Origin: a bacterium | GTDB lineage: Bacteria; Patescibacteriota; Saccharimonadia; CAILAD01; BJGX01 | Direction: 5' to 3' | Length of the DNA: 36,331 nucleotides | NCBI GenBank assembly: GCA_029778565.1 | Contig: JAKOQC010000487.1 | Span: 1 to 36,331 of the forward strand | Shown: positions 9,468-30,063 of the stretch, piece by piece | How positions within the stretch are numbered: the first letter of the stretch is position 1 | How the letters are laid out: every line of letters begins with the position of its first letter | Program-made: the position numbers and the translations under genes | The notes under the pieces: model-generated | Databases searched by the model: none | Seen by the model: only the letters and a program-made list of their open reading frames with translations | What the model was told of the DNA's origin: nothing

Positions 9468-10729
9468 GGAATAATTATTAATAGCAAAGCAAGGAGAGTA
9501 AGTCTGAGAAGATTTTGATATAATTTTGTATAGCGCAGTAATCATAGGTCAATCGGTATTTAATGAAAACCAATTTAATTTTAAATCAATACAATCTTGC
9601 CCATTCAACCCTGCTGCCTAAAACATTTAGAATGAATGCGCAATAAATAATACTCTATGTGTCTGTAAGTTTGGAATTGATTTGTTGTTAATTGATTCCC
9701 GTGTTCAGAAGCTAATCTAAATAGACTTTTGAAAAAGACATTTAGATGACAAAAAAAACCGCATACCCAAATAACAAAAGCATTTGAATAAAAGTTTGGA
9801 ATAGATCCAGCTATTTTGTTGACTTTCGATCCTGAAAACAGGAAAACATCCAACCAATCACACAGCTTAACAAATAACGTATGAAATTCTCTTAATGAAA
9901 GGGATTCGCTTCTGCAAAAAGCAGTATTGCTCCCTGAAACATTGATATTACAAGAGCCGAAAAAAAAACATGGAATTACGTTTTGATTTAATTTCATCTG
10001 CATTTATCTAACACGCTATTAAAGAGGTGTTCCTGAGTTAAACAATTTTGAATAGGGCATGTCAAATTAACTTCAAAAACGTTGTTCGATACTTCTATAT
10101 GAAGTATGAAATCATTCCAATTAACCAAAAGTGATTTAATAAACACAGTTTTCTATAATTAAAGAACCTTAAATTTTGAGACAATGACATATACACCAAC
10201 CACTTGTGGTCAATTCTGATCATTACCAATGTAAAATTTTCGTCGAACTTAAGAAAGAGCAAAACAAGCGCCTTGCCCGGTTATCTCGCCGCAAAGAAAC
10301 ATATTTTATACAGCAATACATAATGATATTTTGATAATATTTTAATAATTTGTTATATTTTTATTTTTTAATATATAAATATTTGGTATTCTATTCTTTA
10401 ATCATCATTATATAAATACTCAGCTAATTTGGCCAATGCATATCCAATTGTTTGAATTGTAATTTATCTGTGTTTACTAATGTTGGAAACACAATTTTAA
10501 CACGCCCAGAGGATTTCCCTAATAGTTAATACACAATTCGGCCATAACAATGACTTTGTATTGTTTTGCAAGAAAAAAAATGACTATTTCAGTTCATTCA
10601 TAAAAATTTATTCATTTTTCAATCTATACTTTCCATGGTGTCCAAATTCCAAAATAAATATCAAAACAGTTGTTCAGTCTTTTTTTGAATGGAATTGGAT
10701 CTTGCGCTTTTAATTAAATCCTTAAAAAC
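9468..10729. other. AT-rich intergenic region without a convincing gene
   Basis: This spacer lies between the central giant gene and the enzyme-like SprB gene. It is very AT-rich, particularly at 10300-10420, where runs of A/T dominate. The only ORF of any size (minus strand, 9605..10003) has a Phe/Cys/Asn-rich composition, no recognisable motif and no signal peptide, so I treat it as chance. An inverted repeat is at 10089-10107, and the transcription terminator of the giant is just beyond the right end. The promoter of the enzyme-like gene should lie here, but I found no clear Bacteroidota TTG / TAnnTTTG pair. Confidence 0.7.
10089..10107. repeat. Perfect inverted repeat, 7-bp arms
   Basis: ATACTTC and GAAGTAT flank a TATAT spacer. 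It is short enough to arise by chance in AT-rich DNA, but it is an operator-like dyad in the spacer upstream of the enzyme-like SprB gene. Function unknown. Confidence 0.3.
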
Positions 10730-10779: not shown

Positions 10780-13700
10780 CTACCTTGAAACTGTAAATTT
10801 CTTTTGAATCAATTCATGAGCTGTTTTAATCTGCAACACATATTGAGCAGGTGCCAAAATACCTGTCCTCAATAATTCATTGTATTTGCCTTTTAATTTA
10901 AACTCACTAAACGGAGCAACGAGTACTCTCTTTCCATTTTGATCAAATACACTTACTTCAATTTCGCCGTCCTGTGGCAACCATAAATCGACTTTCAAAA
11001 TATCGTTTACAGGATTCGGATAAATAAAGACATACAATTTATCAGGAGAATCCACATTTATTGAAATTTCTCGACTATAGGTGTATATACCCGTTTTGTC
11101 AACTTGTTTCAATCTGTAATAATATACTCCTGATTTAGCAACACCAAAATCATCAAACTCATAATTGTGTTTAGATACGTTTGGTTTATTGCTTGCACTC
11201 ACTTTTCCTAACTCAGTGAATTCTTTTTCCATCTCATGTCTACGTTCAATAATGAAATAATCATTATCTCTTTCAACACCAGTGGTCCAATCCAATTCCG
11301 TAAAGTTACCATTGTATCTTCCTTCTAAATTCATCCAATCCACAGCCGACACAATCTCAATCACTCCGGCGTCTACATCCATTTTGTTTTGACCTGGAAG
11401 CAATTTCATCATCCTGGTACTTCCATATCCAAATGTACCATCGACATCACTATCCATTTCATCCAATCCGGCATGTGCTTTTGTGAATCTATACTTAGAA
11501 TCCGGAAGTTCAAACTTCACAAAGTAGTCACCACTGGTCAATTCATCAATCAGATAATGGCCGTCTTTATCCGTTATGCTTTCACTTACCTTCATTCCTT
11601 CACTATTGTATGCGGATACAATCACACCCGGTAATACCGCTTCTCCAATATCCTGAATACCATTGGAGTTGGCATCTACCCAAACTGTGCGACCCAATGT
11701 CGCCTTAGGCTGGAATCCGGCACCTATGGAGATTACATTATCACCACTTTGCAATGTGATTCTGCGTGTGGTATTAATACCATTTTCATGGGTAATATCA
11801 CTATCCTTATCCGGATTTGTACCTTGATATGGAGGACTTACGGAAAGACTTGATGGTTTATCAAAACGAATGTAGTAAGTTCCTGGTTTCAAGCAGATAA
11901 ACTTGTAATATCCATCATCCGAAGGAGTACCAGGTTTAGTACTTGTCACAGTAGCTGCTACCGTTTTACCAGTTGCTGCATCAATAACATAAACATATAA
12001 TCCATTTATTCCTTTTTCTGCCGGATCATAAATTCCATCATAATCAATGTCAAACCAAACATCACCGGAAATTGAAGTACATTTATACAATCCCAAATCC
12101 CATGTTCTGTCTACTTCACCTTGACTTAATTGAGTGCTTGCCGTCGTATTTGTCCCATTGCTATTATCCACATCACTGTCCTTATAGTCAGGTCCCTGAT
12201 TTGCTGTAGTTACAAGCCAACCAGAAGGAACATCAAATTTTACGTAATAATCACCCGGAATCAGATTTGTGAACAAATAGAAACCATTAATATCTGTTAC
12301 CGTTGATTTTACAAAAACCTTTGTATTTGCATCGTAAAGCCTGACGGTAACACTTTGAATTCCTTCTTCACCAAAATCCTGCATACCATTGAGATTGCGA
12401 TCATGCCAGACATAATCACCCAATGAAGCAAACAACACCAGACCAACATCATAAGTGTTATCAATTTCACCAGCATCAATATGCGTGCATGGTCCAACAC
12501 CAGCCTGATTTACGTCGCTATCTAATCTGTCATCTCCACCCTGATCTTGTTTAGTAAATCCATAATTTGATGGAAGCAAGCTAAGGTCAAATGTTATAAA
12601 GTAGTCTTTGTTTGGAGTTAACTTATCAAACAGATAATATCCATTTACATCCGTTGTATCCTTTCTGATGATTTGACCAGTAGCACAATCACGTAATATC
12701 GCAATTACATCTTTAACTACAGGTTCACCAATGTTATACATTCCATTGCCATTGAGATCCACCCAAATAGTATCACCCAATGCCCCATAGAAATCAGTAT
12801 CCGTACATGCGGTATCCCTTTGATCAGGAATTCCATCACGATTCAGATCCAATCTGGATTCATTGAATAATCCTTCTCCGGCTTTCGGTTGACCCGGGAT
12901 CGTCGCACCACACTTTCTATAGATGTGATCTCCATTACTCTGTGCGGTTAAATCTAGATTTACATTTACAGAAATCTGATATGTTTGAACACCAAATGCT
13001 GCGATAAACTGATTATTGGCAAGAGACCATGGTCCTGTACCAATCAGTGACCATGGACCCGGATTACCCAGGTTACCAATAGCATCTGTTGTATAACTCG
13101 TATTCAGTATATTGATATCATCATCATAACTTGGAGCATCCTGCAGATCATAAGTAGTACTTACTCCACCAAGATTTGTAACCTTGATTCTGTAAACTAC
13201 TTTGAAATTTCCATTACCCAGAGATGTAAGTGCTGATACGGTTTTCTCATGTATGAGGTATGGAATATCTCCACATGCGGTATCCTTCTGTTCAATACTT
13301 CCATCACTGTTGATATCAAGACTAGATTCATTGAATAATCCTTCTCCGGAAACAGGGAATGTAACAAACAACTTACCACACTGATCATATCTGTTATCTC
13401 CAACAGCATCTTCCAAATTAATGGTAACATTCACTCTGAGTATATAAGAGTGTAATGCACCACCTGCAATAGTTTGATTAGTTGCCAGCAACCATGGACC
13501 CGATCCACTGAGTAATACAGGTCCCGGATTTGCTATATTGCCCGGAGCATCGCTGGTATAATTTGAACTATTAATTACAATGTCATTGTCGAATGCAGGA
13601 CGATCAACCAATGCGTAGGTTCCACTTACACCTCCGACATTTCTTACCGTAATCCGATATGTTGCCATAAAGCTTCTTGGACCCGTTTGCGTCATGCCGA

Positions 13701-16700
13701 TAAGATTTTTATCATGCGTTATATATGGTATGTCTGAACATGCCGTATCACGCTGATCTATCGTTCCGTCACTGTTAATATCCAATCTAGATTCATTGAA
13801 TAATCCTTCACCTACTTTAGGATATGATCCAAAGGTATGGCCGCAAGCATCGTAACGATCATCTCCTCCTCCTCCATTCAGATTGATAGTAACATTCACA
13901 CGGATATTATAAGTATGAATAGCACCAACTGCTATAGTTTGATTACTTGCCAGTGTCCACGGGCCGGTACCCGGTAGTCCAATAGGACCAGGATTGCCCG
14001 GATTACCCAATACATTGGTAAAATAATTTGCAGACAAAATGGTGATATCATTATCAAAGGCCGGTGCATCCGTAAGGCTATATGTTCCATTAGCGCCTCC
14101 TTTATTTTCAACGGTAATTTTATATTCTACCTGATAGGTATTCAAACCTGTTGGTGTCAATCCAACAAACGTTTTATGATGAATAATTCTTGGAATATCA
14201 CCGCAAGCCGTATCTCTGGAAATTTCAATACCAGTATAAAATAATCTGGATTCATTGAATAAACCTTCCCCAACTCTTGGAATTCCATTTGCATATCCAC
14301 AAGGCCTGTATACATTATCACCTGATCCATTTGCAAGATCAACACTTACGTTTATAGCAATCTGATATGTCTGATTACTGAATGCACCTATCGATTGATT
14401 AGCTGCCAATACCCAGGGTCCTGATCCAAAGAGTGGTAATGGTCCCGGGTTACCCAGGTTGCCCACCGCATCTGTAGTATAACTAGAACTCAAGATATTA
14501 ACATCATTATCAAAATTCGGTACATCCTGAAGATCATAAAATCCACTAGATCCACCCAAATTGCTCACATTAATTTTATATATAAGTCTGAAGTTACCAT
14601 TGCCGATGTCTGTGATACCCACCAATGATTTATGATGAACGATATATGGAATATCTGCACATGCCGTATCCTTTTGATCAACACTTCCATCACTGTTGAT
14701 GTCCAGTCTGGATTCGTTGAACAATCCTTCTCCGGATATTGGATACGAACCAAATTGCTTACCACACTTATCATATCTGTTATCTCCAACTGCGTCTTCC
14801 AGATTAATGCTTACATTAACCCTGATCAAATAATTCTGAATGGCTCCGGCTGCAATGGTTTGGTTATTAGCCAACAACCATGGTCCTGTTCCGGAAAGAT
14901 TTACCGGACCCGGATTTGCAATATTACCCGGAGCATCACTGCTATAATTGCTATTGTTGATCACGATATCATTATCGAATGCAGGACGGTCAGACAATGC
15001 ATATACACCGCTCATTCCGCCAACATTACGTACTGAAATTTTATAGGTAACCAAAAAGCTTCTCGGTCCGGTTTGCGCTAATGCTACCAGATTCTTTTCA
15101 TGCAGCAGGTACGGAATATCTGAACATGCAGTATCGCGTTGATCAATTGTGCCATCACTGTTGATATCCAGTTGTGATTCATTAAATAATCCCTCTCCGG
15201 TTTTCGGATATGAACCGAATGTCCGGCCGCAGGCATCGTAACGATCATCTCCACCACCTCCGTTAAGATTGATAGAAACATTCACCCGGATATTAAATGT
15301 ATGGGTTGCTCCACCTGCAATGGATTGATTGGATGCCAACGTCCATGGACCTGTACCAATTAATCCTATTGGACCCGGATTTGCAATGTTACCCGGTGCT
15401 GTACTGCTGTATGAAGCAGATAAAATATTGATGTCATTGTCGAAGGCAGGTGAATCGGCAAGGCTGTATGTACCATTTGCACCACCTTTATTTTCAACAG
15501 TAATCTTATATTCTACCTGGTAGCTATTCAGGCCTAGTGGAGTTATGCCGACCAAACTCTTATGATGAATAATCTTTGGAATATCTCCACAAGCTGTATC
15601 ACGCTGCACCAATATACCCGTATAATACAATCTCGATTCATTGAAGAATCCTTCACCTACTTTTGGAATTCCATTTGTGAATCCGCAAGGTCTGTAAATA
15701 TTGTCTCCACTTAAATTAGTCAGATCAACATTTACATTGATGGCAAGCTGATAAGATTGCATACTAAATCCACTGATAGCTTGATTAGTCGCCAATACCC
15801 ATGGACCTGTCCCGAATAATGGTATTGGACCAGGATTGCCTATATTTCCAACTGCATCTGTTGTATAACTTGCACTTAAAATATTTACATCATCATCAAA
15901 TCCCGGTGCATCATTCATGTCATAGTTGCCACTGGCTCCACCTTTATTCGTTACATTGATTCTATAAATGGCTCTGTAATTACCACCACCTAAATCAACA
16001 ACACCAACTAAAACTTTCTCATGAACAATGTACGGTATATCAGCACAGGCTGTATCCTTTTGATCAATACTTCCATCGCTGTTGATATCCAATCTGGACT
16101 CATTGAATAATCCTTCTCCGGAAATTGGATACGAACCAAATTGTTTACCACATGGATCGTAGCGGTTATCTCCAGTCACATCCTCCAGATTGATACTCAC
16201 ACTCACCTTAATGATGTAATTATGTACTGATCCTCCTGCAATGGACTGATTATTAGCCAGCGTCCATGGTCCTGTACCACCCAATAACAGTGGTCCCGGA
16301 TTCGCAATGTTACCCGGCGCATCAGAAGTATAATTCGCACCTGTAATTGTTATATCATTGTCAAATGCCGGACGGTCAGATAATGCATATACTGCATTCA
16401 CCGCACCCACATTTCTAACTGCAATCTTATAGGTTACCTGGAAGTTTCTTGCTCCAGTTTGTGTAACTCCAAGAATGCTCTTCTCATGTATCAGATAAGG
16501 TATATCTGCACATGCTGTATCGCGTTGATCAATAGTACCATCGCTGTTAATATCCAATCTGGATTCATTGAATAATCCTTCTCCAGCTTTTGGATAAGTA
16601 ATAAAGGTCTGCCCACAAGCATCATATCTGTCATCACCACCACCACCATTAAGGTTGATGGAAATATTCACTTTGATGTTGTATGTGTGTATTCCTCCTC

Positions 16701-19700
16701 CAGCTATGGCCTGATTCGTTGCAAGTATCCAAGGACCTGAACCTGGTAAACCAAGAGGACCCGGATTCGCCACATTACCAGGTGCATTGCTGTTATAGCT
16801 TGCAGCGAGTATGGTAATATCATTATCAAAATTAGGTGCATCCGATAAGCTATACACTCCTGGAGCGCCACCTTTATTTTCAACTGTGATTTTGTATTCA
16901 ACCTGGAATGAATTTAATCCGGTTGGTGTAACACCAACGATACTCTTGTTGTGAATAATTCGTGGAATATCACCACATGCGGTATCGCGCTGAATGATAA
17001 TGCTGGTGTAGTATAATCTGGATTCATTAAAGAATCCTTCTCCAACTCTAGGAATACCATTTGTAAAACCACAGGGTCTGTAAACATTGTCTCCGGTACC
17101 CAGATTGACCAAATCAACATTTACATTTACAGATAGCTGATAGGTCTGATTTCCAAATGCTGATATGGATTGATTATTTGCCAGTAACCAAGGTCCTGAT
17201 CCAAATAAAATCCATGGACCTGGATTACCAGGATTTCCTGTTGCATTCGAGGTATAATTCGCATTTAAAATATTTACATCGTCATCAAATGCAGGTGCAT
17301 CCTGTAAATCATATGTTCCACTTGCACCACCCAAGTTCCTCACCAGGATCTGGTATGCTACACGATAATTTCCACCTCCTAAATCGGTTACACCTGTAAA
17401 TGTTTTTTCATGAACGATATATGGAATATCAGCACAGACTGTATCCTTTTGATCAATACTTCCATCGCTGTTGATATCCAGTCTTGATTCATTGAATAAT
17501 CCTTCTCCGGAAATCGGATAAGAGCCAAATGCTTTACCACACTGATCATAGCGATTATCACCAACTGCATCTTCCAGATTAATCGTTACATTCACTTTGA
17601 TGATATATGAATGTATGCCTCCACCGGTAATGCTTTGATTGTTTGCTAATAACCATGGACCTGTTCCTGCTAAATTAACAGGACCCGGATTTGCAATGTT
17701 ACCTGGCGCATCGCTGGTTAATGTTGTACCATTGATTACAATGTCATTATCAAATGCCGGCCGGTCAGACAATGCATACATTCCACTGGTTCCACCAAGA
17801 TTTCGAACAGATATCTTATACGTCACCTGGAAGCTTCGCGCACCGGTTTGAATTAATCCGATGATGCTCTTCTCGTGTACGATGTAAGGTATATCAGTAC
17901 ATGCAGTATCCCGCTGATCGATGATTCCATCGCTGTTGATGTCTAGCCTGGATTCATTGAACAGACCCTCGCCTACTTTTGGATATTGTCCGAATGCATG
18001 TCCGCAAGCATCATACCTGTCATCACCGCCACCACCTTCAAGATTGATGGAAACATTGACGCGAATATTATAGGTATGAGTTCCACCTGCAGCAATCGAC
18101 TGATTTGTAGCTAATGTCCAAGGACCTGTTCCTGCTAATCCCAGTGGTCCCGGATTTGCCACATTACCCGGCGCATTGCTGCTATAGGTTGCCGACAAAA
18201 TATTGATATCATTGTCAAAGTTTGGTGCATCATATAAACTATATATGCCATTGGCACCACCTTTATTTTCAACTGTAATTTTATATTCTACCTGGTAACT
18301 GTTGAGACCCAATGGGGTTACTCCAACAATACTTTTCTTGTGAATAATTTTTGGAATATCCGCACAAGCGGTGTCTAATTGAAAGAGTATACCAGTATAG
18401 AACAATCTTGATTGATTGAATAATCCTTCGCCTGCAATTGGAATGCCCAGAGTAAATCCGCAAGGCCTGTAATTATTATCACCGGTAGCATTTAACAAAT
18501 CTACATTTACATTCAATGAGATTTGGTAAGATTGATTTCCGAATGCCGAAATTTGCTGATTGGATGCAAGTACCCATGGACCAGTTCCTGCCAAAGGCAA
18601 TGGTCCCGGATTACCCGGATTGCCCGTTGCATCCGTCATGTAATTCGCATTTGAAATATTTACATCATCATCAAATGCCGGAGCATCCTGTAAATCATAT
18701 ACACCGCTAGCTCCACCAAGATTGATTACATTGATCCGGTAAACGACTCTGAAGTTTCCACCACCAAGATCTGTAACTCCTACTATGGTTTTGTGATGAA
18801 CTATATATGGAATATCCGCACAAACGGTATCTTTTTGATCGACACTGCCATCGCTATTGATATCCAATCTCGATTCATTGAATAATCCTTCTCCGGAAAT
18901 CGGATATGAACTAAGTTGTTTACCGCACTGATCATAACGGTTATCTCCAACAGCATCACTCAAATTAATGCTAACATTAACTTTAATGACAAACATTTGA
19001 ACACCGCCTGCCCCAATAGATTGGTTTGTAGCCAATATCCAGGGACCTGATCCTCCAAGATTCACAGGCCCAGGATTTGCTATATTACCTGGTGCATCGC
19101 TGGTATAACTTGTACTTCCGATTACAATATCATTGTCAAATGCCGGACGATCAGATAAGGCATACACACCTGATGTACCTCCAATATTGCGTACTGTTAT
19201 CTTATATGTAACCTGGAAATTTCTAGGTCCGGTTTGGTTAACTCCCAATATACTCTTTTCATGAATGAGATAAGGAATATCTGTACAAGCCGTATCACGT
19301 TCATCCACGATTCCATCGCTGTTGATATCCAATCTTGATTCATTGAATAATCCTTCTCCAACTTTTGGATATGATCCGAAAGTATGTCCGCATGCATCAT
19401 AGCGATCATCACCTCCACCACCTTCAAGATTGATGGAGACATTCATCCGGATATTATATGTGTGAATAGCACCACCTGCAATTGATTGATTTGAAGCTAA
19501 TGTCCATGGACCAGTTCCTGCTAATCCGAGAGGTCCCGGATTTGCTACATGTCCTGGAACATTGCTGGAATAATTTGCTGATAAGATGGCTATATCGTTG
19601 TCAAAATTTGGTGCATCAGATAAACTATACACTCCGGGCGCACCTCCTTTATTTTCAACCGTTATTTTATATTCTACCTGATAACTATTCAAACCTGTTG

Positions 19701-22700
19701 GAGTGACTCCTACAATGCTCTTATTGTGAACAATCTTTGGAATATCTCCACAAGCGGTATCTCTTTGAATTAATATGTTGGTGTAGTAAAGTCTGGATTC
19801 ATTGAAAAATCCTTCTCCGAATCTAGGTAATCCATTAAAGAATCCACATGGTCTGTAGATATTATCTCCAGGACCTGGATTTACAAGATCAACACTTACA
19901 TTTACACCTATCTGATACATATGACTTGAAAAAGCACCGATAGATTGATTGCCTGCCAGATTCCATGGACCGTTTCCTGCCAATGGTAATGGACCAGGAT
20001 TTCCAGGATTTCCACTTGCATCTGTAGTATAGGTTGCACTTAATATATTCACATCATCATCAAATCCAGGTGCATCCTGCAGATCATATGTTCCGGTTGC
20101 ACCTCCCAGGTTCCTTACATTAATTTTATAAACTACTCTGAAATTACCACCACCTATGTCTACTACTCCAACAAATTGTTTTTCATGTACGATATATGGA
20201 ATATCCGCACATGCAGTATCTAATTGATCGGTAGTTCCATCACTATTGATATCGAGGCGGGATTCATTGAATAATCCTTCTCCGGAAACCGGATAAGAAC
20301 CGAAACGTTTACCGCACTGGTCGTAACGATTGTCACCAACAACATCTTCCAGATTAATACCAATGTTCACTTTAATTATATACATCTGAATGCCACCGGC
20401 ACCAATACTCTGATTGGTAGCCAATATCCAAGGTCCAATTCCTGCAAGATTTATCGGACCCGGATTTGCAATATTACCCGGTGCATCACTGGTATAACTT
20501 GTACTGTTGATTACGATATCATTATCAAATGCGGGGCGGTCTGACAAAGCATACACTCCACCGATACCACCAATGTTCCGGACAGTAATTTTGTATGCAA
20601 CCTGGAAGCTTCTTGCTCCGGTTTGCGTAACACTTAAAATACTTTTATCGTGCACGATATATGGAAGGTCCGCGCATGCAGTATCACGTTGATCCACGAT
20701 TCCATCGCTGTTGATATCCAATCTGGATTCATTGAATAATCCTTCTCCTGTTTTCGGATATGTTCCGAATGTATGTCCGCAAGCATCATAGCGCTCATCG
20801 CCACCACCACCTTGCAGATTAATAGAAACATTCACCCGGATATTATACGTTTGAGTACCTCCTGCCGAAATAGATTGATTTACAGCAAGTGTCCAGGGTC
20901 CTGTTCCCGGTAATCCTACCGGTCCTGGATTTGCTGGATTTCCAGTTGCATTACTTACATAATTTGCAGACAAGATATTGATATCATTATCAAAACCTGG
21001 CGCATCGGTAAGACTGTATAATCCAGTGGCTCCTCCTTTATTTTCAACGGTAATTTTATATTCTACCTGATAACTATTCAATCCAGTTGGTGTAACACCT
21101 ACGATACTCTTGTGATGAGTAATTCTTGGAATATCAGCACATGCTGTATCCTTTTGATCTGGATTACCATCATTGTTGAGATCCAGTCTGGATTCATTGA
21201 ATAATCCTTCTCCGGCGCGTGGAATTCCCGGCGTCGTATACCCACAAGGTTTATAAATATTATCACCATTTCCTGCATTAACAAGATCCACGTTGACATT
21301 CACAGCAATTTGATAAGTCTGACTGCTGAATCCGTTTATTGATTGATCATTTGCAAGGAACCACGGGCCTGAACCAAATAATATCCATGGACCTGGATTT
21401 GCCGGATTACCGACCGCATTAGTTGTATAACTTGCGCTGGTAATACTTACATCATCATCAAAATTAGGTGCATCTGTAAGATCATAAGTACCTGTTGCTG
21501 CACCAATATTATTTACATTGATTCGATAAATCACTCTATAATTTCCACCACCCAAATCCGTAACTCCGACGATAGATTTTTCATGTATAATATAAGGTAA
21601 GTCTGCACATGCTGTGTCTTTTTGATCTACTGTACCATCGCTATTAATATCAAGCCTGGATTCATTAAATAACCCTTCACCTGAAATCGGATAAGACCCG
21701 AATTGTTTTCCACACTGATCATATCGATTATCTCCTGAAGCATCTTCAAGATTTATCGTTACATTAACCCGAATGCTATACACGTGCACGGCTCCACTGA
21801 GAATCGTTTGATTAGCGGACAATGACCATGGTCCAACTCCAGGAAGTACCACAGGGCCTGGATTCGCAATATTGCCCGGTGCATCACTGGAATAACTTGC
21901 ACTATTAATTGCAATATCATTATCAAATGCCGGACGATCTGAAAGTGCATACATAGCACTGGTACCACCAATATTACGCACAGTTATTTTATAAATAACC
22001 TGGTAACTTCTCGGTCCTATCTGAATCAATCCGATGATACTCTTATCATGAACGATAAATGGTATATCTGCGCATGCTGTATCTCTCTCATCGACAGTTC
22101 CATCACTATTGATATCCAGCCTGGATTCATTGAATAATCCTTCTCCTGCTTTTGGATATGTACCAAATGCATGCCCACATGCATCGTATCTGTCATCTCC
22201 TCCACCACCGCTTAGATTGATGGATACATTCACTTTTATATTGTAGGTCTGTATACCACCTCCAGCAATCGTTTGATTCGTGGCAAGTGTCCACGGTCCT
22301 GTTCCCGGCAATCCTACCGGTCCCGGATTTCCAATATTTCCTGCCGCATTGCTGCTATAACTTGCTGATAAAATGTTGATGTCATTATCAAAATTCGGTG
22401 CATCCGTTAAACTATACAATCCCGGTGCCCCTCCTTTATTCTCAACAGTAATCTTATACTCAACCTGGTAACTGTTCACACCGGTAGGTGTGACTCCTAC
22501 TATAGTTTTATTGTGTACAATTTTCGGAATATCTGCACAGGCTGTATCGCGTTCAATGATGAAATTTGTAAAGTATAATCTGGATTCATTAAACAATCCT
22601 TCTCCTACTCTCGGTATTCCATTAAAGTATCCGCATGGTTTGTAGATATTATCACCTGTCGCATTGGCAAGATCTACATTCACATTCACTGTGATCTGAT

Positions 22701-25700
22701 ATGTTTGATTGCTGAATCCTCCGATTGACTGGTTTGTTGCCAGTACCCATGGGCCTGCACCTATTAATGGCAATGGCCCTGGATTTCCTGCATTTCCTGA
22801 TGCATCAGTTGTATATGTTGCAGTCAAGACATTTACATCATCATCAAATCCAGGCGCATCCTGCAAATCATACACGCCATTTGCACCACCCACATTGCTA
22901 ACATTGATTCGATATACGACTCTAAAGTTTCCTCCTCCCAAATCTGTTACGCCTACCAATGATTTATTGTGTGTAATGTATGGTATGTCTGCACATGCCG
23001 TATCTTTTTGATCAACAGTTCCATCACTGTTGATATCTAATCTCGACTCATTAAACAATCCTTCTCCGGATACCGGATATGAATTAAATTGTTTTCCACA
23101 CCGGTCATAGCGATTGTCTCCAATAGCATCTTCCATATTAATGCTGACATTTACTTTAATCACATACATCTGTACGCCACCTCCAGCTATGGTCTGATTG
23201 GTTGCTAAAATCCATGGACCTGTTCCGGTTAGATTTACCGGACCCGGATTTGCATTATTACCTGCCGCATCACTGGTGTAACTTGTACTATTGATTACAA
23301 TGTCGTTATCAAACGCAGGGCGATCAGATAAAGCATACACTCCACTGGTTCCGCCTATATTGCGAACTGTAATTTTGTACGCTACCTGGAAGCTTCTAGC
23401 TCCGGTTTGCGTTACACTCAGAATACTTTTTTCATGAACAAGGTATGGCAGATCTGCACACGCGGTGTCGCGTTGATCAACAATACCATCGCTGTTGATA
23501 TCCAATCTCGATTCGTTGAATAATCCTTCTCCTGCTTTTGGATATGTTCCAAATGTATGTCCACAAGCTTCATATCTGTCATCTCCTCCACCACCGTTTA
23601 GATTGATGGATACATTCACTTTTATATTGTAGGTCTGTATACCACCTCCTGCAATCGATTGATTCGTTGCAAGTGTCCATGGTCCTGTTCCCGGTAATCC
23701 TACCGGTCCCGGATTTCCAATATTTCCTGCCGCATTGCTGCTAAAACTTGCTGATAAAATGTTGATGTCATTATCAAAATTCGGTGCATCCGTTAAACTA
23801 TACAATCCCGGTGCCCCTCCTTTATTCTCAACAGTAATCTTATACTCAACCTGATAACTGTTCACACCGGTAGGTGTGACTCCTACTATCATTTTATTGT
23901 GTACAATTTTCGGAATATCTGCACACGCCGTATCGCGCTCAATAATGATTCCGGTAAAGAATAATCTGGATTCATTAAATAATCCTTCACCTACTCTCGG
24001 TATTCCATTAAAGTATCCGCATGGTTTGTAGATATTATCACCTGTCGCATTGGTAAGATCTACATTCACATTCACTGTGATCTGAAATGTTTGATTACTG
24101 AATCCTCCGATTGACTGGTTTGTCGCCAATACCCATGGACCTGTTCCAATTAATGGCGATGGCCCTGGATTTCCTACATTTCCTGATGCATCAGTTGTAT
24201 ATGTTGCACTCAAGATATTTACATCATCATCAAACCCCGGTGCATCCTGCAAATCATACACGCCATTTGCTCCACCCATATTGCTAACATTGATACGATA
24301 TATGACTCTGAAATTTCCTCCTCCCAAGTCTGTTACTCCAACTAATGATTTATTATGTACAATGTAAGGTATGTCTGCACATGCCGTGTCTTTTTGATCA
24401 ACAGTTCCATCATTGTTGATATCTAATCTCGACTCATTAAACAATCCTTCTCCGGATACCGGATATGAATTAAATTGTTTTCCACACCGGTCATAGCGAT
24501 TGTCTCCAACAGCATCTTCCATATTGATGCTGACATTCACCTTAATAATGTACATATGTACTCCACCAGCAACAATCGCCTGGCCATTTGCAAGTGACCA
24601 TGGACCTGAACCACCTAAAACTACTGGTCCTGGATTGGCTATGTTTCCGGGTGCATCACTGGTATAATTTGAACCGGTTATTACAATATCATTATCGAAA
24701 GCAGGACGATCAGAAAGTGCATAGACTCCATTCACACCGCCTATATTCCGAACTGTTATTTTATATGCTACCTGAAAGCTTCTTGCTCCGGTTTGTGTTA
24801 CACTCAAAATACTTTTTTCATGAACCAGGTATGGCAGATCCGCACACGCGGTATCTCGTGCATCGGGTACACCATCCAAATTAACATCAAGTCTTGACTC
24901 ATTGAATAAACCCTCTCCCGCTTTTGGAATTCTTAAAGATTTACCACATTCATCATAACGGTTATCCCCACTTGCATCTTCAAGATTTATAATTACGGCA
25001 ACCTTTAAATTATATGTTTGAGTTGCGTTTGCTCCAATGCTTTGATTGGTCGCCAAATTCCACGGACCTGAACCCAATAAAGATAAAGGCCCTGGATTAC
25101 CCGGATTACCTACTGCATTTGTTGTGTAATTAGATGCAGTGATTGTAATGTCATTATCAAAAGAAGGTGCATCTGATAAATTATAAACACCTGCGCTACC
25201 AGTATTGCTTACTACAATACGATAAAGAATTTCATATGAATTCAATCCTGTTGCTGTAGTAGATACAAATTCCTTAGTGTGAGTAATTTTTGGTGTACAA
25301 TCTGAAGGCGCAGTATATGTTGTACTTTTCTTGCAATTAGGTTCGGCACTAAAAGCCGCAGTCACAGTATGCACCAATCCATCTGCTATCTGAGAAGCAA
25401 TATTGTAATTCAATGGACTTGTAAATGGTGCATTAAATGTTTGACTTCCACCCCCTGTAATTTGAACAGTTAATGTACCTGTAGTTGGTGGATTTGTAAA
25501 TGTTACTGAACCGGTCAGGGTATAACTATTTGATACTGCATTGCAATCACCTGCAAGGACTGTAATTCCAGTAACCAAACATGGACAAGGCAAACAACCT
25601 ATCAAAACGATATTATCCAGTTTAAATGCTCTTCCCCTGCTATGTCCCACCACTCGTATTTTATTGGTATTTGCAGGAGATACCATGTTTATGGTTGTCA

Positions 25701-28700
25701 TCGCCAGTAAGGTACCATCATACACATGGGTTGTATTCGATTTTGTTGACGTTGCCAATAAAGTGGTTCCATTATAAAATTCAAGGTAGATCTCTGCAAT
25801 TGAATTTGAGAATGCAGGATTATGAGTTGCCCCTAATGCATTTAGGGTATATAATATATTCGGTAAAGCATTTGTCGTAATGTACTGCTCAATATACCGG
25901 TCTGTATTGTCATCATCATTGTTTAAGATTCCAAAGTCCCCGGTGGTTGAACCGGTTCCCAATGTCCACTCAGATGAAGGAGTACCATTAGCAACTACCC
26001 AACTGCTCGGCGGTGTTCCGGTTTCCATATTTCCATTGACTACTAAGTTACCAGAAACGCAGGATGGATTCGGACACGTTATACAGCTTTGAGGAGATGT
26101 GTATGTAGTACTCTTCGTACAATTCGGATCCGCGCTAAACGTCGCCGTAACTGTATGTAATGAGCCATCTGATGATTGATTGGCGATACTATAATTTACC
26201 GGACTGGTAAATGGTGCATTAAGTATCTGGCTGCCACCACCTGCAATTTCAATTGTTAACGTACCGGTTGTTGGAGGATTGGTAAATGTCACTACTCCGG
26301 TTAAAGTATATGCATTCGTAGTTGAATTGCAAGTACCTGGTGTTGCGCTGATTGCAGTAAGAGAACAGACACATGACGGAGGTGCAGAATATGTCTTGCT
26401 TTTCGTACAATTTGGATCTGCGCTGAAAATAGCTGTCACCGTATGTGTTAATCCATCTGACAATTGATTATTGATGGTATAATTGATTGGACTGGTGAAT
26501 GGGGCATTAAATGTTTGGCTGCTTCCTCCGGTAATTGAAACCGTTAATATTCCGGTTGCAGGTGCATTTGTAAATATCACAGTCCCGGTTAAAGAATATG
26601 TATTAGTTAATGGATTACATGATCCGGGTGTTGCAGTAATTGAACTTACAACACAAACACAATTTGCCGGTGCGTTGTAAGTCGTACTCTTCGTACAATT
26701 GGGATCGGCACTAAATGTAGCCGAAATGGTATGCGTTATACCATCTGAAATTTGTCCGGCAATACTATAATTTACTGGACTTGCAAATGGAGCATTAAAT
26801 ATTTGACTACCACCTCCAGCAATTTGAATGGTTAATATTCCCGAAGAAGGCGGATTTGTAAAACTCACTGATCCTGTAACGGTGTAAGTATTCGATGAAG
26901 AATTACATGCACCCGGAGTGGCCGTAATACTATTTACTGAACACACACATGGAATACAAGCAGTCAACACAATATTATCTAACTTAAGTGCTCTTCCTCT
27001 GCTGTGTCCAACTATTCTGATTTTGGTAGTGTTTGAAGTAGTAGCTATTTGAATATCTGTCAAAGCCGCTAATGAACCATTGTACAGATATGTTGTATTA
27101 GATTTACTGGACGTTGATATGAGCGTATTGCCATTATATAATTCCAGGTAAATTTCTGCAATCGCATTTGAAAATGCTGGTGAATGCGTTGCACCTAATG
27201 CTTTAAGTGTATAAATAGTATTCGGGATTACGCCTGTTGTGATATATTGCTCAATGTAACGATCGGTATTATCATCATCATTATTCAAAATTCCAAAATT
27301 GCCCGTCGATGATCCTGTACCCAAAGTCCATTCAGATGCAGGGGTACCATTAGCAACCACCCAACTACTTGGGGGACTGCCCGCTGACATATTACCATTG
27401 ATATCTAAATTATCTGTAACACATGAATTATTCGGACAAGAAATACAAGGATCCGGTGCCGTAAATGTTGTACTTTTTGTACAATTAGGATCTGCACTAA
27501 ATACAGCTGTCACAGTATGAGTCAGACCATCCGAATTTTGATTGGCTAAACTATAATTAAACGGACTAGAGAATGGTGCGTTTATTACCTGACTTCCGCC
27601 CCCAGTTACCTGTATAGTCAGGGTCCCTGAATTTGGTGGATTTGTAAATGTTACCACCCCACTCACAGTATGCATATTTGTTGAAGGGTTGCATGTACCA
27701 GCAGTTGCCGTAATTCCCGAAACAATACATTGACAAGGATTACATGCCGTCAATATGATATTGTCGAGTTTAAGGGCTCTTCCTCTGCTATGACCCACAA
27801 TTCTTATTTTTGTTGTTGTTGCTGTCGTTGTAATTAAGACATCAGACATAGCTTGCAAAGACCCATTGTAAATAAATGTTGTACTGGATTTATTGGAAGT
27901 TCCCACCAATGTATTGCCATTGTATAATTCCAGATAAATTTCTGCAATGGCATTAGAGAATGCGGGAGAATGCGTAGCGCCAAGAGCTTTAAGTGTATAT
28001 ATGGTATTTGGATTTATTCCTGTAGTGACATATTGTTCAATATAACGATCTGTATTGTCATCATCGTTATTCAGGATTCCAAAATTACCAGTTGATGATC
28101 CTGTACCCAAAGTCCATTCGGAGGCAGGCGTGCCATTAGCAACCACCCAACTGCTTGGAGGAGTACCAACTGACATATTGCCATTGACCACTAAATTATC
28201 AGAAACGCATGCATTATTGGGACATACAATACAAGATGCTGGAGAATTAAAAGTTGCGCTTTTTGTACAATTCGGATCAGCACTAAAAGTTGCTGTCACC
28301 GTATGAGTTAAACCATCCGAATTTTGATTGGCAAAACTGAAATTCACTGGACTTGTGAATGGTGCATTGAACACCTTATTTTCACCACCAGCAATTTGCA
28401 GAGTCAATGTGCCGGTACTTGGTGCCTGAGTAAATGAAACTGAACCAGATAATGTAAACGTATTGGTATTTGGATTGCATGTACCTGGAGTAACATTCAT
28501 GCTGTTAAATACACAATTATTACACGGGGTTGAATCAACAGGTTCAGTATTATTTCCGGTTTTACTGGGACTTGCATGAACAGATGTAATTACAGGAACT
28601 CCAAATCCAGAAGTACCAAAAACATTTAAATCAACTGTTGTTTCATACCAGACTTCATAGATCCACTTTGGATAACTTGGATTAGGAGTATAATTTGTAT

Positions 28701-30063
28701 CTGTTGCAGGTGAATTTGTGGTAAGCACATAATTGTAAGTATTAAAGTTAACATCCATAGAAGATGTAGCACTTAGAATACTTGAGGCACTTCCAGTGAT
28801 CATACCTCCATCACCGCCTGTAACTCCCAGACAATCATAACCAGAAGGTGCAGCGGAGCTGGCTGTTATATAATCTAACTTGAATTCCAATTTTTTTACT
28901 TTATTATTATCATACAATGCAAGTTGCACATGATCAGACCCTACTAATTGACTAAAACTATGGTTGTTTGCCGGCCAACCTATGGTATTTGAGCCATAGG
29001 TATTATCCACAAATGTCTTAGCAAATGTGGTTCGTATTGTAACCGTTTTCAAGCTAGGATTAATTGTCCAGTCGATTTTAGCATTTACCCTTTTATCACC
29101 AGTTGAACTCTTAAAACATAGTTGATCACCAGGACAAGTATCATCTTTTACTACTGCGGTTGCACTGGTCTTTTTACCTTTTGAATCCGTTACCGTTAGG
29201 GTATAAGTACCCGCACAAACATTATTTAAATCCTTAGTTGTAGCACCAGTAGACCAGAGATAAGTAAAAGGTGTATTCGTACCATTCATAGTAGATACTA
29301 TGTCTTCACTACAATCCTGAACACAATTTCCATTGACCACCAAGGATAAATCACTTGGGCATTTCATTGAATCGACTGGCTCAGTATTGTTTCCGGTTTT
29401 ACTTGGGCTCGCATGAACAGATGCAATTAATGGAAAACCGAATCCCGCTGATCCAAAGGCGTTCAAATCCACTGTTGTCTCATACCAAACATCATATATC
29501 CAATTTGGATAACTCGGGTTAGGAGTATAATTAGCATCGGTTGATGGTGAATTTGTAGTTAGTACATAACCATATGTATTAAAATTTACATCCAAAGATG
29601 TGGTTGCACTTTTAATACTTGAAGCACTACCGGTGAGCATTTGACCTTCACCTCCGGTTACACCCAGACAATCATAACCTGATGATGCTCCGGAACTAGC
29701 AGTTATATAATCTTGTTTGAATTCTAATTTTTTGACGCCATTTTTATCATAAAGCGCTAATTGAACGTGATCGGATCCTACCAAATCTCCAAATTTATGA
29801 CCATTCGGCCAGCCTATTGCTGTAGTTCCATAAGTATTATCCACAAAGGTCTTTGCAAATGTGGTTCTTAATGTAACTGTATTTTTTACCGGGTCAATTG
29901 TCCAGGTAATCTTTGCACCTACACGAGCATCATTTGTCGAACTTTTGAAACATAGCTCATCTCCTGATGATTGGCCATTTAAAATTGAGCCAAAATTAAA
30001 TAGCATTATACAGCAAATAATGCTAAAAACTCTTTCCAATTGGTTTTTGTAAATCCGTTTCAT
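10780..30063 (-). CDS. Giant T9SS-secreted modular surface protein, 6427 aa
   Basis: Complete ORF from ATG at 30063 to TAG at 10780. Residues 1-31 are a signal peptide ending near SILNGQ. Then: module A (~32-235, starts LCFKSST, ends SKTGNNTEPVDS), one SprB repeat (~238-304) and a second module A (~309-511). Next are six ~87-residue Ig-like B modules (TPGxCNPxTNTY, SADPNCTKS) mixed with three ~155-residue C modules in order B C B C B B B C B (~518-1584); the C modules (NLVVNGNM, GILNNDDDNTDRYIEQY, HSRGRALKLDN) look like galactose-binding jelly rolls. Twenty-seven DUF11-like D modules occupy ~1590-5757. Four SdrD_B-like domains (~5759-6235), a linker with WTTGVERDNDYF, and a T9SS type A sorting domain (YPNPVNDILKV to KKFTVSR) end the protein. 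It is likely exported by T9SS and displayed on the surface as a very long, calcium-stiffened adhesin or matrix fibre. The size is close to the ~6500-residue SprB adhesin of Flavobacterium, but the domain plan differs. No frameshift was seen. Confidence 0.97.
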   Translation of the reverse strand: MKRIYKNQLERVFSIICCIMLFNFGSILNGQSSGDELCFKSSTNDARVGAKITWTIDPVKNTVTLRTTFAKTFVDNTYGTTAIGWPNGHKFGDLVGSDHVQLALYDKNGVKKLEFKQDYITASSGASSGYDCLGVTGGEGQMLTGSASSIKSATTSLDVNFNTYGYVLTTNSPSTDANYTPNPSYPNWIYDVWYETTVDLNAFGSAGFGFPLIASVHASPSKTGNNTEPVDSMKCPSDLSLVVNGNCVQDCSEDIVSTMNGTNTPFTYLWSTGATTKDLNNVCAGTYTLTVTDSKGKKTSATAVVKDDTCPGDQLCFKSSTGDKRVNAKIDWTINPSLKTVTIRTTFAKTFVDNTYGSNTIGWPANNHSFSQLVGSDHVQLALYDNNKVKKLEFKLDYITASSAAPSGYDCLGVTGGDGGMITGSASSILSATSSMDVNFNTYNYVLTTNSPATDTNYTPNPSYPKWIYEVWYETTVDLNVFGTSGFGVPVITSVHASPSKTGNNTEPVDSTPCNNCVFNSMNVTPGTCNPNTNTFTLSGSVSFTQAPSTGTLTLQIAGGENKVFNAPFTSPVNFSFANQNSDGLTHTVTATFSADPNCTKSATFNSPASCIVCPNNACVSDNLVVNGNMSVGTPPSSWVVANGTPASEWTLGTGSSTGNFGILNNDDDNTDRYIEQYVTTGINPNTIYTLKALGATHSPAFSNAIAEIYLELYNGNTLVGTSNKSSTTFIYNGSLQAMSDVLITTTATTTKIRIVGHSRGRALKLDNIILTACNPCQCIVSGITATAGTCNPSTNMHTVSGVVTFTNPPNSGTLTIQVTGGGSQVINAPFSSPFNYSLANQNSDGLTHTVTAVFSADPNCTKSTTFTAPDPCISCPNNSCVTDNLDINGNMSAGSPPSSWVVANGTPASEWTLGTGSSTGNFGILNNDDDNTDRYIEQYITTGVIPNTIYTLKALGATHSPAFSNAIAEIYLELYNGNTLISTSSKSNTTYLYNGSLAALTDIQIATTSNTTKIRIVGHSRGRALKLDNIVLTACIPCVCSVNSITATPGACNSSSNTYTVTGSVSFTNPPSSGILTIQIAGGGSQIFNAPFASPVNYSIAGQISDGITHTISATFSADPNCTKSTTYNAPANCVCVVSSITATPGSCNPLTNTYSLTGTVIFTNAPATGILTVSITGGSSQTFNAPFTSPINYTINNQLSDGLTHTVTAIFSADPNCTKSKTYSAPPSCVCSLTAISATPGTCNSTTNAYTLTGVVTFTNPPTTGTLTIEIAGGGSQILNAPFTSPVNYSIANQSSDGSLHTVTATFSADPNCTKSTTYTSPQSCITCPNPSCVSGNLVVNGNMETGTPPSSWVVANGTPSSEWTLGTGSTTGDFGILNNDDDNTDRYIEQYITTNALPNILYTLNALGATHNPAFSNSIAEIYLEFYNGTTLLATSTKSNTTHVYDGTLLAMTTINMVSPANTNKIRVVGHSRGRAFKLDNIVLIGCLPCPCLVTGITVLAGDCNAVSNSYTLTGSVTFTNPPTTGTLTVQITGGGSQTFNAPFTSPLNYNIASQIADGLVHTVTAAFSAEPNCKKSTTYTAPSDCTPKITHTKEFVSTTATGLNSYEILYRIVVSNTGSAGVYNLSDAPSFDNDITITASNYTTNAVGNPGNPGPLSLLGSGPWNLATNQSIGANATQTYNLKVAVIINLEDASGDNRYDECGKSLRIPKAGEGLFNESRLDVNLDGVPDARDTACADLPYLVHEKSILSVTQTGARSFQVAYKITVRNIGGVNGVYALSDRPAFDNDIVITGSNYTSDAPGNIANPGPVVLGGSGPWSLANGQAIVAGGVHMYIIKVNVSINMEDAVGDNRYDRCGKQFNSYPVSGEGLFNESRLDINNDGTVDQKDTACADIPYIVHNKSLVGVTDLGGGNFRVIYRINVSNMGGANGVYDLQDAPGFDDDVNILSATYTTDASGNVGNPGPSPLIGTGPWVLATNQSIGGFSNQTFQITVNVNVDLTNATGDNIYKPCGYFNGIPRVGEGLFNESRLFFTGIIIERDTACADIPKIVHNKMIVGVTPTGVNSYQVEYKITVENKGGAPGLYSLTDAPNFDNDINILSASFSSNAAGNIGNPGPVGLPGTGPWTLATNQSIAGGGIQTYNIKVNVSINLNGGGGDDRYEACGHTFGTYPKAGEGLFNESRLDINSDGIVDQRDTACADLPYLVHEKSILSVTQTGARSFQVAYKITVRNIGGTSGVYALSDRPAFDNDIVINSTSYTSDAAGNNANPGPVNLTGTGPWILATNQTIAGGGVQMYVIKVNVSINMEDAIGDNRYDRCGKQFNSYPVSGEGLFNESRLDINSDGTVDQKDTACADIPYITHNKSLVGVTDLGGGNFRVVYRINVSNVGGANGVYDLQDAPGFDDDVNVLTATYTTDASGNAGNPGPLPLIGAGPWVLATNQSIGGFSNQTYQITVNVNVDLANATGDNIYKPCGYFNGIPRVGEGLFNESRLYFTNFIIERDTACADIPKIVHNKTIVGVTPTGVNSYQVEYKITVENKGGAPGLYSLTDAPNFDNDINILSASYSSNAAGNIGNPGPVGLPGTGPWTLATNQTIAGGGIQTYNIKVNVSINLSGGGGDDRYDACGHAFGTYPKAGEGLFNESRLDINSDGTVDERDTACADIPFIVHDKSIIGLIQIGPRSYQVIYKITVRNIGGTSAMYALSDRPAFDNDIAINSASYSSDAPGNIANPGPVVLPGVGPWSLSANQTILSGAVHVYSIRVNVTINLEDASGDNRYDQCGKQFGSYPISGEGLFNESRLDINSDGTVDQKDTACADLPYIIHEKSIVGVTDLGGGNYRVIYRINVNNIGAATGTYDLTDAPNFDDDVSITSASYTTNAVGNPANPGPWILFGSGPWFLANDQSINGFSSQTYQIAVNVNVDLVNAGNGDNIYKPCGYTTPGIPRAGEGLFNESRLDLNNDGNPDQKDTACADIPRITHHKSIVGVTPTGLNSYQVEYKITVENKGGATGLYSLTDAPGFDNDINILSANYVSNATGNPANPGPVGLPGTGPWTLAVNQSISAGGTQTYNIRVNVSINLQGGGGDERYDACGHTFGTYPKTGEGLFNESRLDINSDGIVDQRDTACADLPYIVHDKSILSVTQTGARSFQVAYKITVRNIGGIGGVYALSDRPAFDNDIVINSTSYTSDAPGNIANPGPINLAGIGPWILATNQSIGAGGIQMYIIKVNIGINLEDVVGDNRYDQCGKRFGSYPVSGEGLFNESRLDINSDGTTDQLDTACADIPYIVHEKQFVGVVDIGGGNFRVVYKINVRNLGGATGTYDLQDAPGFDDDVNILSATYTTDASGNPGNPGPLPLAGNGPWNLAGNQSIGAFSSHMYQIGVNVSVDLVNPGPGDNIYRPCGFFNGLPRFGEGFFNESRLYYTNILIQRDTACGDIPKIVHNKSIVGVTPTGLNSYQVEYKITVENKGGAPGVYSLSDAPNFDNDIAILSANYSSNVPGHVANPGPLGLAGTGPWTLASNQSIAGGAIHTYNIRMNVSINLEGGGGDDRYDACGHTFGSYPKVGEGLFNESRLDINSDGIVDERDTACTDIPYLIHEKSILGVNQTGPRNFQVTYKITVRNIGGTSGVYALSDRPAFDNDIVIGSTSYTSDAPGNIANPGPVNLGGSGPWILATNQSIGAGGVQMFVIKVNVSINLSDAVGDNRYDQCGKQLSSYPISGEGLFNESRLDINSDGSVDQKDTVCADIPYIVHHKTIVGVTDLGGGNFRVVYRINVINLGGASGVYDLQDAPAFDDDVNISNANYMTDATGNPGNPGPLPLAGTGPWVLASNQQISAFGNQSYQISLNVNVDLLNATGDNNYRPCGFTLGIPIAGEGLFNQSRLFYTGILFQLDTACADIPKIIHKKSIVGVTPLGLNSYQVEYKITVENKGGANGIYSLYDAPNFDNDINILSATYSSNAPGNVANPGPLGLAGTGPWTLATNQSIAAGGTHTYNIRVNVSINLEGGGGDDRYDACGHAFGQYPKVGEGLFNESRLDINSDGIIDQRDTACTDIPYIVHEKSIIGLIQTGARSFQVTYKISVRNLGGTSGMYALSDRPAFDNDIVINGTTLTSDAPGNIANPGPVNLAGTGPWLLANNQSITGGGIHSYIIKVNVTINLEDAVGDNRYDQCGKAFGSYPISGEGLFNESRLDINSDGSIDQKDTVCADIPYIVHEKTFTGVTDLGGGNYRVAYQILVRNLGGASGTYDLQDAPAFDDDVNILNANYTSNATGNPGNPGPWILFGSGPWLLANNQSISAFGNQTYQLSVNVNVDLVNLGTGDNVYRPCGFTNGIPRVGEGFFNESRLYYTSIIIQRDTACGDIPRIIHNKSIVGVTPTGLNSFQVEYKITVENKGGAPGVYSLSDAPNFDNDITILAASYNSNAPGNVANPGPLGLPGSGPWILATNQAIAGGGIHTYNIKVNISINLNGGGGDDRYDACGQTFITYPKAGEGLFNESRLDINSDGTIDQRDTACADIPYLIHEKSILGVTQTGARNFQVTYKIAVRNVGAVNAVYALSDRPAFDNDITITGANYTSDAPGNIANPGPLLLGGTGPWTLANNQSIAGGSVHNYIIKVSVSINLEDVTGDNRYDPCGKQFGSYPISGEGLFNESRLDINSDGSIDQKDTACADIPYIVHEKVLVGVVDLGGGNYRAIYRINVTNKGGASGNYDMNDAPGFDDDVNILSASYTTDAVGNIGNPGPIPLFGTGPWVLATNQAISGFSMQSYQLAINVNVDLTNLSGDNIYRPCGFTNGIPKVGEGFFNESRLYYTGILVQRDTACGDIPKIIHHKSLVGITPLGLNSYQVEYKITVENKGGANGTYSLADSPAFDNDINILSASYSSTAPGNIANPGPIGLIGTGPWTLASNQSIAGGATHTFNIRVNVSINLNGGGGDDRYDACGRTFGSYPKTGEGLFNESQLDINSDGTIDQRDTACSDIPYLLHEKNLVALAQTGPRSFLVTYKISVRNVGGMSGVYALSDRPAFDNDIVINNSNYSSDAPGNIANPGPVNLSGTGPWLLANNQTIAAGAIQNYLIRVNVSINLEDAVGDNRYDKCGKQFGSYPISGEGLFNESRLDINSDGSVDQKDTACADIPYIVHHKSLVGITDIGNGNFRLIYKINVSNLGGSSGFYDLQDVPNFDNDVNILSSSYTTDAVGNLGNPGPLPLFGSGPWVLAANQSIGAFSNQTYQIAINVSVDLANGSGDNVYRPCGYANGIPRVGEGLFNESRLFYTGIEISRDTACGDIPRIIHHKTFVGLTPTGLNTYQVEYKITVENKGGANGTYSLTDAPAFDNDITILSANYFTNVLGNPGNPGPIGLPGTGPWTLASNQTIAVGAIHTYNIRVNVTINLNGGGGDDRYDACGHTFGSYPKVGEGLFNESRLDINSDGTIDQRDTACSDIPYITHDKNLIGMTQTGPRSFMATYRITVRNVGGVSGTYALVDRPAFDNDIVINSSNYTSDAPGNIANPGPVLLSGSGPWLLATNQTIAGGALHSYILRVNVTINLEDAVGDNRYDQCGKLFVTFPVSGEGLFNESSLDINSDGSIEQKDTACGDIPYLIHEKTVSALTSLGNGNFKVVYRIKVTNLGGVSTTYDLQDAPSYDDDINILNTSYTTDAIGNLGNPGPWSLIGTGPWSLANNQFIAAFGVQTYQISVNVNLDLTAQSNGDHIYRKCGATIPGQPKAGEGLFNESRLDLNRDGIPDQRDTACTDTDFYGALGDTIWVDLNGNGMYNIGEPVVKDVIAILRDCATGQIIRKDTTDVNGYYLFDKLTPNKDYFITFDLSLLPSNYGFTKQDQGGDDRLDSDVNQAGVGPCTHIDAGEIDNTYDVGLVLFASLGDYVWHDRNLNGMQDFGEEGIQSVTVRLYDANTKVFVKSTVTDINGFYLFTNLIPGDYYVKFDVPSGWLVTTANQGPDYKDSDVDNSNGTNTTASTQLSQGEVDRTWDLGLYKCTSISGDVWFDIDYDGIYDPAEKGINGLYVYVIDAATGKTVAATVTSTKPGTPSDDGYYKFICLKPGTYYIRFDKPSSLSVSPPYQGTNPDKDSDITHENGINTTRRITLQSGDNVISIGAGFQPKATLGRTVWVDANSNGIQDIGEAVLPGVIVSAYNSEGMKVSESITDKDGHYLIDELTSGDYFVKFELPDSKYRFTKAHAGLDEMDSDVDGTFGYGSTRMMKLLPGQNKMDVDAGVIEIVSAVDWMNLEGRYNGNFTELDWTTGVERDNDYFIIERRHEMEKEFTELGKVSASNKPNVSKHNYEFDDFGVAKSGVYYYRLKQVDKTGIYTYSREISINVDSPDKLYVFIYPNPVNDILKVDLWLPQDGEIEVSVFDQNGKRVLVAPFSEFKLKGKYNELLRTGILAPAQYVLQIKTAHELIQKKFTVSR
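10783..11030 (-). other. T9SS type A C-terminal sorting domain of the central giant
   Basis: The ~80-residue end contains the hallmarks of the family: a YPNPVND motif, alternating beta strands (IEVSVFDQNGKRV), a PAQYVLQI strand and a basic final KKFTVSR. Sorting domains of this type direct Sec-exported proteins through T9SS and are usually removed by the sortase PorU during anchoring or release. Its presence shows that the 6427-residue protein is complete at its C-terminus. Confidence 0.92.
11355..12785 (-). repeat. Four SdrD_B-like domains in the central giant
   Basis: Four ~115-125-residue units begin GDTIWVDLNGNG, GDYVWHDRNLNG, GDVWFDIDYDG and GRTVWVDANSNG. Each carries the Asp/Asn-rich GxxDxxE loop and the DVNGYYLF, DINGFYLF, DDGYYKF or KDGHYLI strand typical of SdrD_B / Cna_B-like prealbumin folds, with DSDVN-type loops later. 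In the family these are calcium-binding spacer domains. The same four units, in the same order, occur in the giant gene at the right edge. Confidence 0.9.
12790..25300 (-). repeat. 27-copy DUF11-like module array arranged as nine a-b-c triplets
   Basis: Each module is about 154 residues (462 bp): a start like (Y/K)IVHxKSxVGVT, a DUF11-like core with YxLxDxPxFDxDI and GNxxNPGPxxLxGxGPWxLAxNQ, a GDxxYxxCG segment, GEGLFNESRL and a DTACxDIP end. Approximate module starts: 25293, 24830, 24368, 23914, 23447, 22984, 22530, 22063, 21600, 21130, 20665, 20200, 19740, 19275, 18810, 18355, 17890, 17425, 16965, 16500, 16035, 15577, 15112, 14648, 14190, 13725, 13257. Three types alternate: a (TPTGLNSYQVEYKITVENKGG), b (TQTGARSFQVxYKITVRNIGG with ALSDRPAFDNDI) and c (TDLGGGNFRVxYRINVxN with DLQDAPxFDDDV). 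Most modules end in a calcium-loop-like DINSDGxxDQxDTAC that resembles thrombospondin type 3 or dockerin loops. Confidence 0.93.
25310..28520 (-). repeat. Interleaved six Ig-like (B) and three jelly-roll-like (C) modules
   Basis: Order from the N-terminus is B C B C B B B C B. The B modules (~87 residues) share PGTCNPxTN, TFTNPPxTGTLTxQIxGG, FNAPFTSPVNY and FSADPNCTKS. The C modules (~155 residues, starting at about 28215, 27425 and 26075) share VVNGNM, PSSWVVANGTP, GILNNDDDNTDRYIEQY and RIVGHSRGRALKLDN. The start and end of C resemble the NLxxNGxFE...W and DNI patterns of CBM-like, galactose-binding folds, so they are candidates for glycan contact; that role is inferred. Copies are highly similar at DNA level. 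Confidence 0.85.
28530..29985 (-). repeat. Duplicated N-terminal module A flanking one SprB repeat
   Basis: Two ~200-residue copies (about 29360-29970 and 28530-29140) begin LCFKSST and end SKTGNNTEPVDS. They share AKTFVDNTYG, GSDHVQLALYD, GYDCLGVTGG and NPSYPxWIYxVWYETTVDLN. I do not recognise the family. A single SprB repeat with an NGTNTPFTYLWSTGATT core lies between them. The copies are roughly four-fifths identical by eye, so this is an internal duplication. Their position right after the signal peptide makes them the likely distal tip of the exported fibre. Confidence 0.85.

Follow-up and report, generated by a model that had tools for sequence, protein, structure and literature searches.

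The window (the whole 36,331-nucleotide stretch of DNA analysed) carries an open reading frame (ORF) with an array of 27 modules, in which three types (a, b and c) follow one another for nine cycles. The array, a putative stalk, was probably built by the copying of whole a-b-c triplets, and its period of three would be mainly an inherited footprint of that duplication unit. Four observations bear on this account: protein identity has a period of three modules; silent sites between copies are saturated; one recent event had the size of a triplet; and in a related gene, array size differs between orthologues by whole triplets. The parts of the ORF were laid out as follows:

10780..30063, reverse strand: array-bearing ORF, 6,427 aa, reading from 30063 to 10780
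25294..30063, reverse strand: N-terminal region, aa 1-1590, with other repeated domains and two weak HpiC1-like stretches
23911..25293, reverse strand: triplet 1, with a1 24832-25293 (diverged N-terminal cap), b1 24367-24831, c1 23911-24366
22525..23910, reverse strand: triplet 2, with a2 23446-23910, b2 22981-23445, c2 22525-22980
21127..22524, reverse strand: triplet 3, with a3 22060-22524, b3 21595-22059, c3 21127-21594 (DxNxDG loop kept in c3)
19738..21126, reverse strand: triplet 4, structure-modelled, with a4 20662-21126, b4 20197-20661, c4 19738-20196
18352..19737, reverse strand: triplet 5, structure-modelled, with a5 19273-19737, b5 18808-19272, c5 18352-18807
16963..18351, reverse strand: triplet 6, with a6 17887-18351, b6 17422-17886, c6 16963-17421
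15577..16962, reverse strand: triplet 7, with a7 16498-16962, b7 16033-16497, c7 15577-16032
14191..15576, reverse strand: triplet 8, with a8 15112-15576, b8 14647-15111, c8 14191-14646
12793..14190, reverse strand: triplet 9, with a9 13726-14190, b9 13261-13725, c9 12793-13260 (diverged C-terminal cap)
10780..12792, reverse strand: C-terminal chassis, four SdrD_B domains and a Por_Secre_tail

The 27 modules, each of 152-156 aa, occupied aa 1591-5757 of the ORF (12793-25293 of the window) and formed triplets of 1,383-1,398 bp. The strict a-b-c order that an earlier note on this DNA had described ran through all nine cycles without a break. In the 27-module matrix, mean protein identity was 77.6, 75.9, 75.9 and 74.2% at offsets of 3, 6, 9 and 12 modules, and 72.6, 73.6, 69.5 and 63.9% at offsets of 15, 18, 21 and 24; at all offsets not divisible by three it was 51.6-57.2%. 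This matrix, the check that the note had proposed, gave a clear excess at offsets of three and upheld the note's claim that modules three apart are closer than adjacent ones (64-78% versus 52-57% identity). Identity thus peaked at multiples of one offset larger than one, the mark of a multi-domain duplication unit. When module order was shuffled, with the end modules left out and the best period from 2 to 7 permitted, none of 2,000 permutations reached the period-3 score (P = 0.0005). Modules of the same type averaged 70-77% identity in protein and 70-74% in DNA. The motifs by which the note had defined the types stood as consensus sequences but were not invariant (a1 had TATGLNSYEILY, b3 QIGPRSYQVIY and c9 SLGNGNFKVVY). 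Module a1 was 56-63% identical to the other a modules and c9 was 58-63% identical to the other c modules, as would be expected of array ends lying outside internal duplication.

The array is old. Among same-type modules the median dS was 1.8-2.0 (about 1.9) and dN/dS was 0.07-0.13; silent sites were near saturation, and codon identity at same-residue sites was 0.53-0.56 against 0.46 expected at random. Because these silent sites are near saturation, the likeness at offset 3 does not come from recent homogenisation; it persists at the protein level through purifying selection. The sole recent duplication was:

22060..24831, reverse strand: b1-c1-a2 versus b2-c2-a3, about one triplet, in triplet register

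The dS values of its b, c and a pairs were 0.69, 0.29 and 0.27, respectively, and in sliding windows the copies were mostly 89-98% identical from late b to a. This single event in triplet register is what ongoing concerted evolution would have in its favour, that is, gene conversion in that register keeping same-type modules similar. Almost all remaining same-type pairs, however, are near silent saturation, with a codon identity little above the random expectation, and concerted evolution of this kind is very improbable.

The contig came from a seemingly mixed bin of 2.25 Mb in 633 contigs (listed relatives, 0.4-1.7 Mb), which would favour an artefact of assembly or reading frame. Against such an artefact, 6,427 codons are open with a dN/dS near 0.1, the copies differ by about 25-30% in DNA, and period-3 arrays occur in independent assemblies; we find it scarcely credible. 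Type IX secretion system (T9SS) tails occurred in only four places in the source bin, on three contigs, and none was found in the 12 relatives of the bin that were searched. The contig probably belongs to a member of the Saprospiraceae and was placed in the bin of an unrelated bacterium with a small genome.

The ORF began with a signal-peptide-like N-terminus (MKRIYKNQLERVFSIICCIMLFNFGSILNGQS, judged by eye), after which came the N-terminal region, the 27 modules and the four SdrD_B domains; a sorting tail of T9SS type A closed it. The tail scored 48.0 bits for Por_Secre_tail (cut-off 27) and 48.7 bits for TIGR04183 (cut-off 23), so that in its C-terminal sorting domain the putative protein agrees with T9SS type A cargo. 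Of the features of a fibrillar adhesin, the ORF had SdrD_B stalk domains, besides the T9SS sorting domain, and no confident adhesive domain was found in the N-terminal region. Judged from its sequence, the product is most likely a giant protein of the cell surface that the T9SS exports and anchors, and the array would serve as its long stalk. The neighbouring gene P0002 (31093-36324) had a C-terminal part homologous to the array gene's 10780-12792 (51% over 669 aa), and its own array was made of DUF7507, unrelated to the triplet modules. The two giant genes have a common C-terminal chassis and unrelated arrays, as if arrays were interchangeable on it. Two more large ORFs adjoining the array gene (3-6539 and 6888-9545) were rich in SprB repeats.

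Under the triplet-duplication account, three modules would first have diverged from one another. Next, recombination between modules of the same type, in triplet register, would have duplicated whole triplets and kept the a-b-c order, and purifying selection would have acted on the copies during their long divergence afterwards. The register of recombination would have held the unit at three. The longest identical DNA runs had a mean of 30 bp (maximum 109) at offset 3 and of about 15 bp (maximum 27) at offsets 1 and 2, which makes recombination in triplet register the easier path, with much of the advantage coming from the recent copy. Without that copy, the best same-type run was 42 bp and the best different-type run 33 bp; as the advantage of the triplet register is modest today, the evidence for the recombination step is indirect.

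When genome contigs were scanned, the module turned up in MAGs of Saprospiraceae and of other Bacteroidota, with matches in 53 of 398 sampled genomes of Saprospiraceae, the family of the genome carrying array L022. Eight orthologues of a related gene contained three modules (L077, L112, L113 and L117), six (L101 and L105) or nine (L070 and L098). They had a common N-flank of about 1,380 aa with 49-66% identity (for L105, by the 248 aa available). Their modules formed phase-pure clades across genomes, with bootstrap values of 100 (beta), 86 (gamma), 98 (internal alpha) and 96 (first module), and the inner copies of each type in L098 were identical or almost so in the module tree. The 3/6/9 sizes and the phase clustering make the strongest case for change by whole triplets; these steps of three were seen in the orthologues of the related gene, and the window array had no close orthologue of a different count. 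Within the N-flank family there were two exceptions: L068 (18 modules, period 4) and L155 (one module). On these comparisons, copy number changed by the triplet in at least two lineages. The earlier note's proposal that the triplet is what duplicates was borne out by these whole-triplet differences together with the triplet-sized recent event.

Period 3 was found in the window array, L022 (a cap, four triplets and a cap), L070, L072 and L098, and the smaller arrays L101, L105, L085 and L108 tended to it (P 0.07-0.08). Other periods in the family were 1 (L025 and L067, the latter with 24 modules), weakly 2 (L086, P 0.09) and clearly 4 (L027/L068 in genome G065, 18 modules). The note had taken homogenisation at the level of single domains as the norm. 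As a general premise this was not supported: multi-domain units are common in domain repeats (PMC1553488), and within this module family the single-domain state is only one among several (period 1 in L025/L067, period 4 in L027/L068). Genome G065 had 52 module matches across several giant ORFs.

The L098 group and the arrays of genome G357 (L085 and L086) formed separate module clades of their own, which makes more than one origin of period three probable. In approximately unbiased (AU) tests of the window against L022, the free tree gave 0.88, a single clade for the internal modules of either array 0.32, and collinear pairings 0.065-0.126. These values fit both orthologous and independent types, and orthology of types between the two arrays was not adopted. 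Period 3 in about four module lineages (the window, L022, the L098 group and L085/G357) is more than would be expected of an arbitrary frozen unit, and it counts against the triplet-duplication account.

In three genomes (G152, G240 and G296; arrays L115, L106 and L078) an ORF ended after module position about 101, the end of the beta-sandwich, and after a stop the next consecutive ORF opened with the remainder of the module, from about position 103. On close examination the junctions also contained a new signal-peptide-like start. With this common split point, one module may be divided between neighbouring polypeptides.

Structure prediction gave the module, with high confidence, a beta-sandwich and after it a loop containing two cysteines (pLDDT 96). 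At least two C-terminal cysteines were present in 323 of 323 modules surveyed, and a DxNxDG-type loop motif was present in the a and b modules, c3 and c9; disulfide bonds and calcium binding in this loop are plausible. In seven of the nine c modules the DxNxDG loop was replaced by a shorter stretch. In L072, L085 and L108 an additional cysteine near the C-terminal end of the module recurred every three modules. L085 seemed to lose the calcium loop periodically, but this reading was rejected, as a Gly-to-Trp change had escaped the search pattern.

No Pfam family matched the module at its curated cut-off. DUF11 (PF01345) scored 10.3 bits on triplet a4-b4-c4, below its curated cut-off of 24.6 bits, and matched only 4 of 84 modules at E <= 0.01 (best 0.003); membership in DUF11 was rejected on the cut-off. 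A PDB sequence search returned nothing useful, the fold search gave only weak pilin/MSCRAMM-like matches (TM about 0.4), and the viral fold library gave no informative match. No relatives were found in viral contigs, and PADLOC detected nothing. The module family is undescribed.

Alternatively, the triplet could be a three-domain structural unit, in which the a-b, b-c and c-a interfaces differ, only whole triplets are gained or lost, and selection holds the order. The eight orthologues that change size by whole triplets and the repeated appearance of period 3 in several lineages are in keeping with such a unit. Among the 21 arrays of at least four modules that looked complete, 12 had a module count divisible by three (P 0.02, for a hand-compiled list of arrays that are not independent). 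In the six-module model (triplets 4 and 5; pLDDT 89.7, pTM 0.52) the shortened loop of c4 and c5 formed a tight beta-hairpin, a feature that also speaks for the structural unit, as do the sites fixed and different in all three types (4 versus 1.2 simulated, P 0.038). Sites fixed within types and different between them, however, showed no overall excess (10 versus 13.8 simulated); this fits plain inheritance on the tree, and type-specific selection was rejected on the simulation. Against a structural unit stand also the related arrays with periods of 1, 4 and weakly 2, the period-4 array L027/L068 having the N-flank of the 3/6/9 family itself, and the sizes of 14, 11, 8, 5 and 4 modules among the relatives. 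At its pTM the six-module model yields no reliable interface. On this balance a structural unit seems rather unlikely to be what set the period. It is doubtful, too, that three modules form a mechanical or assembly unit that grew only by threes and gave rise to period three independently several times in Saprospiraceae.

Duplication of several domains as one unit is widespread in domain repeats, with units of, for example, seven domains in nebulin and four in fibronectin type 3 (Bjorklund et al. 2006, PMC1553488). As in those cases, identity here peaks at a fixed domain offset, with blocks of several domains copied jointly. Unlike them, the array belongs to a probable bacterial T9SS surface protein and an undescribed module, has a unit of three, is unusually regular (nine unbroken cycles) and has related-gene orthologues that differ in size by steps of three. 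In the bacterial stalk SasG the unit has two domains, E and G5, which alternate and whose cooperative interfaces have been measured (PMC4458895). Like SasG, the present array would be a surface stalk with a repeat unit of more than one domain type; it differs in consisting of three variants of one module. Periscope proteins have arrays of highly identical repeats (PMC8201768), and a giant Mobiluncus adhesin has 51 Ig-like domains (PMC10619420). The array resembles these in its many stalk domains of variable number within a surface protein; unlike the repeats of Periscope proteins it is old, diverged into three types and short of high identity. The module is like the DUF11 (PF01345) and DUF7507 stalk domains in its weak sequence similarity to DUF11 and its probable stalk role, and unlike them in having some 50 further residues that form a two-cysteine loop.

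Growth of domain arrays by multi-domain blocks was already known, and what is new is a very regular case in an undescribed module family. It is a clean bacterial example in which the unit of array growth can be read from the sequence, through nine cycles, silent saturation and the 3-6-9 steps in related-gene orthologues. The surface module, which lacks a Pfam model at its cut-off, occurs in about one in eight sampled Saprospiraceae genomes. As periods of 1, 3, 4 and weakly 2 occur within this one family, whether recombination register or structure sets the period can be tested by comparison.
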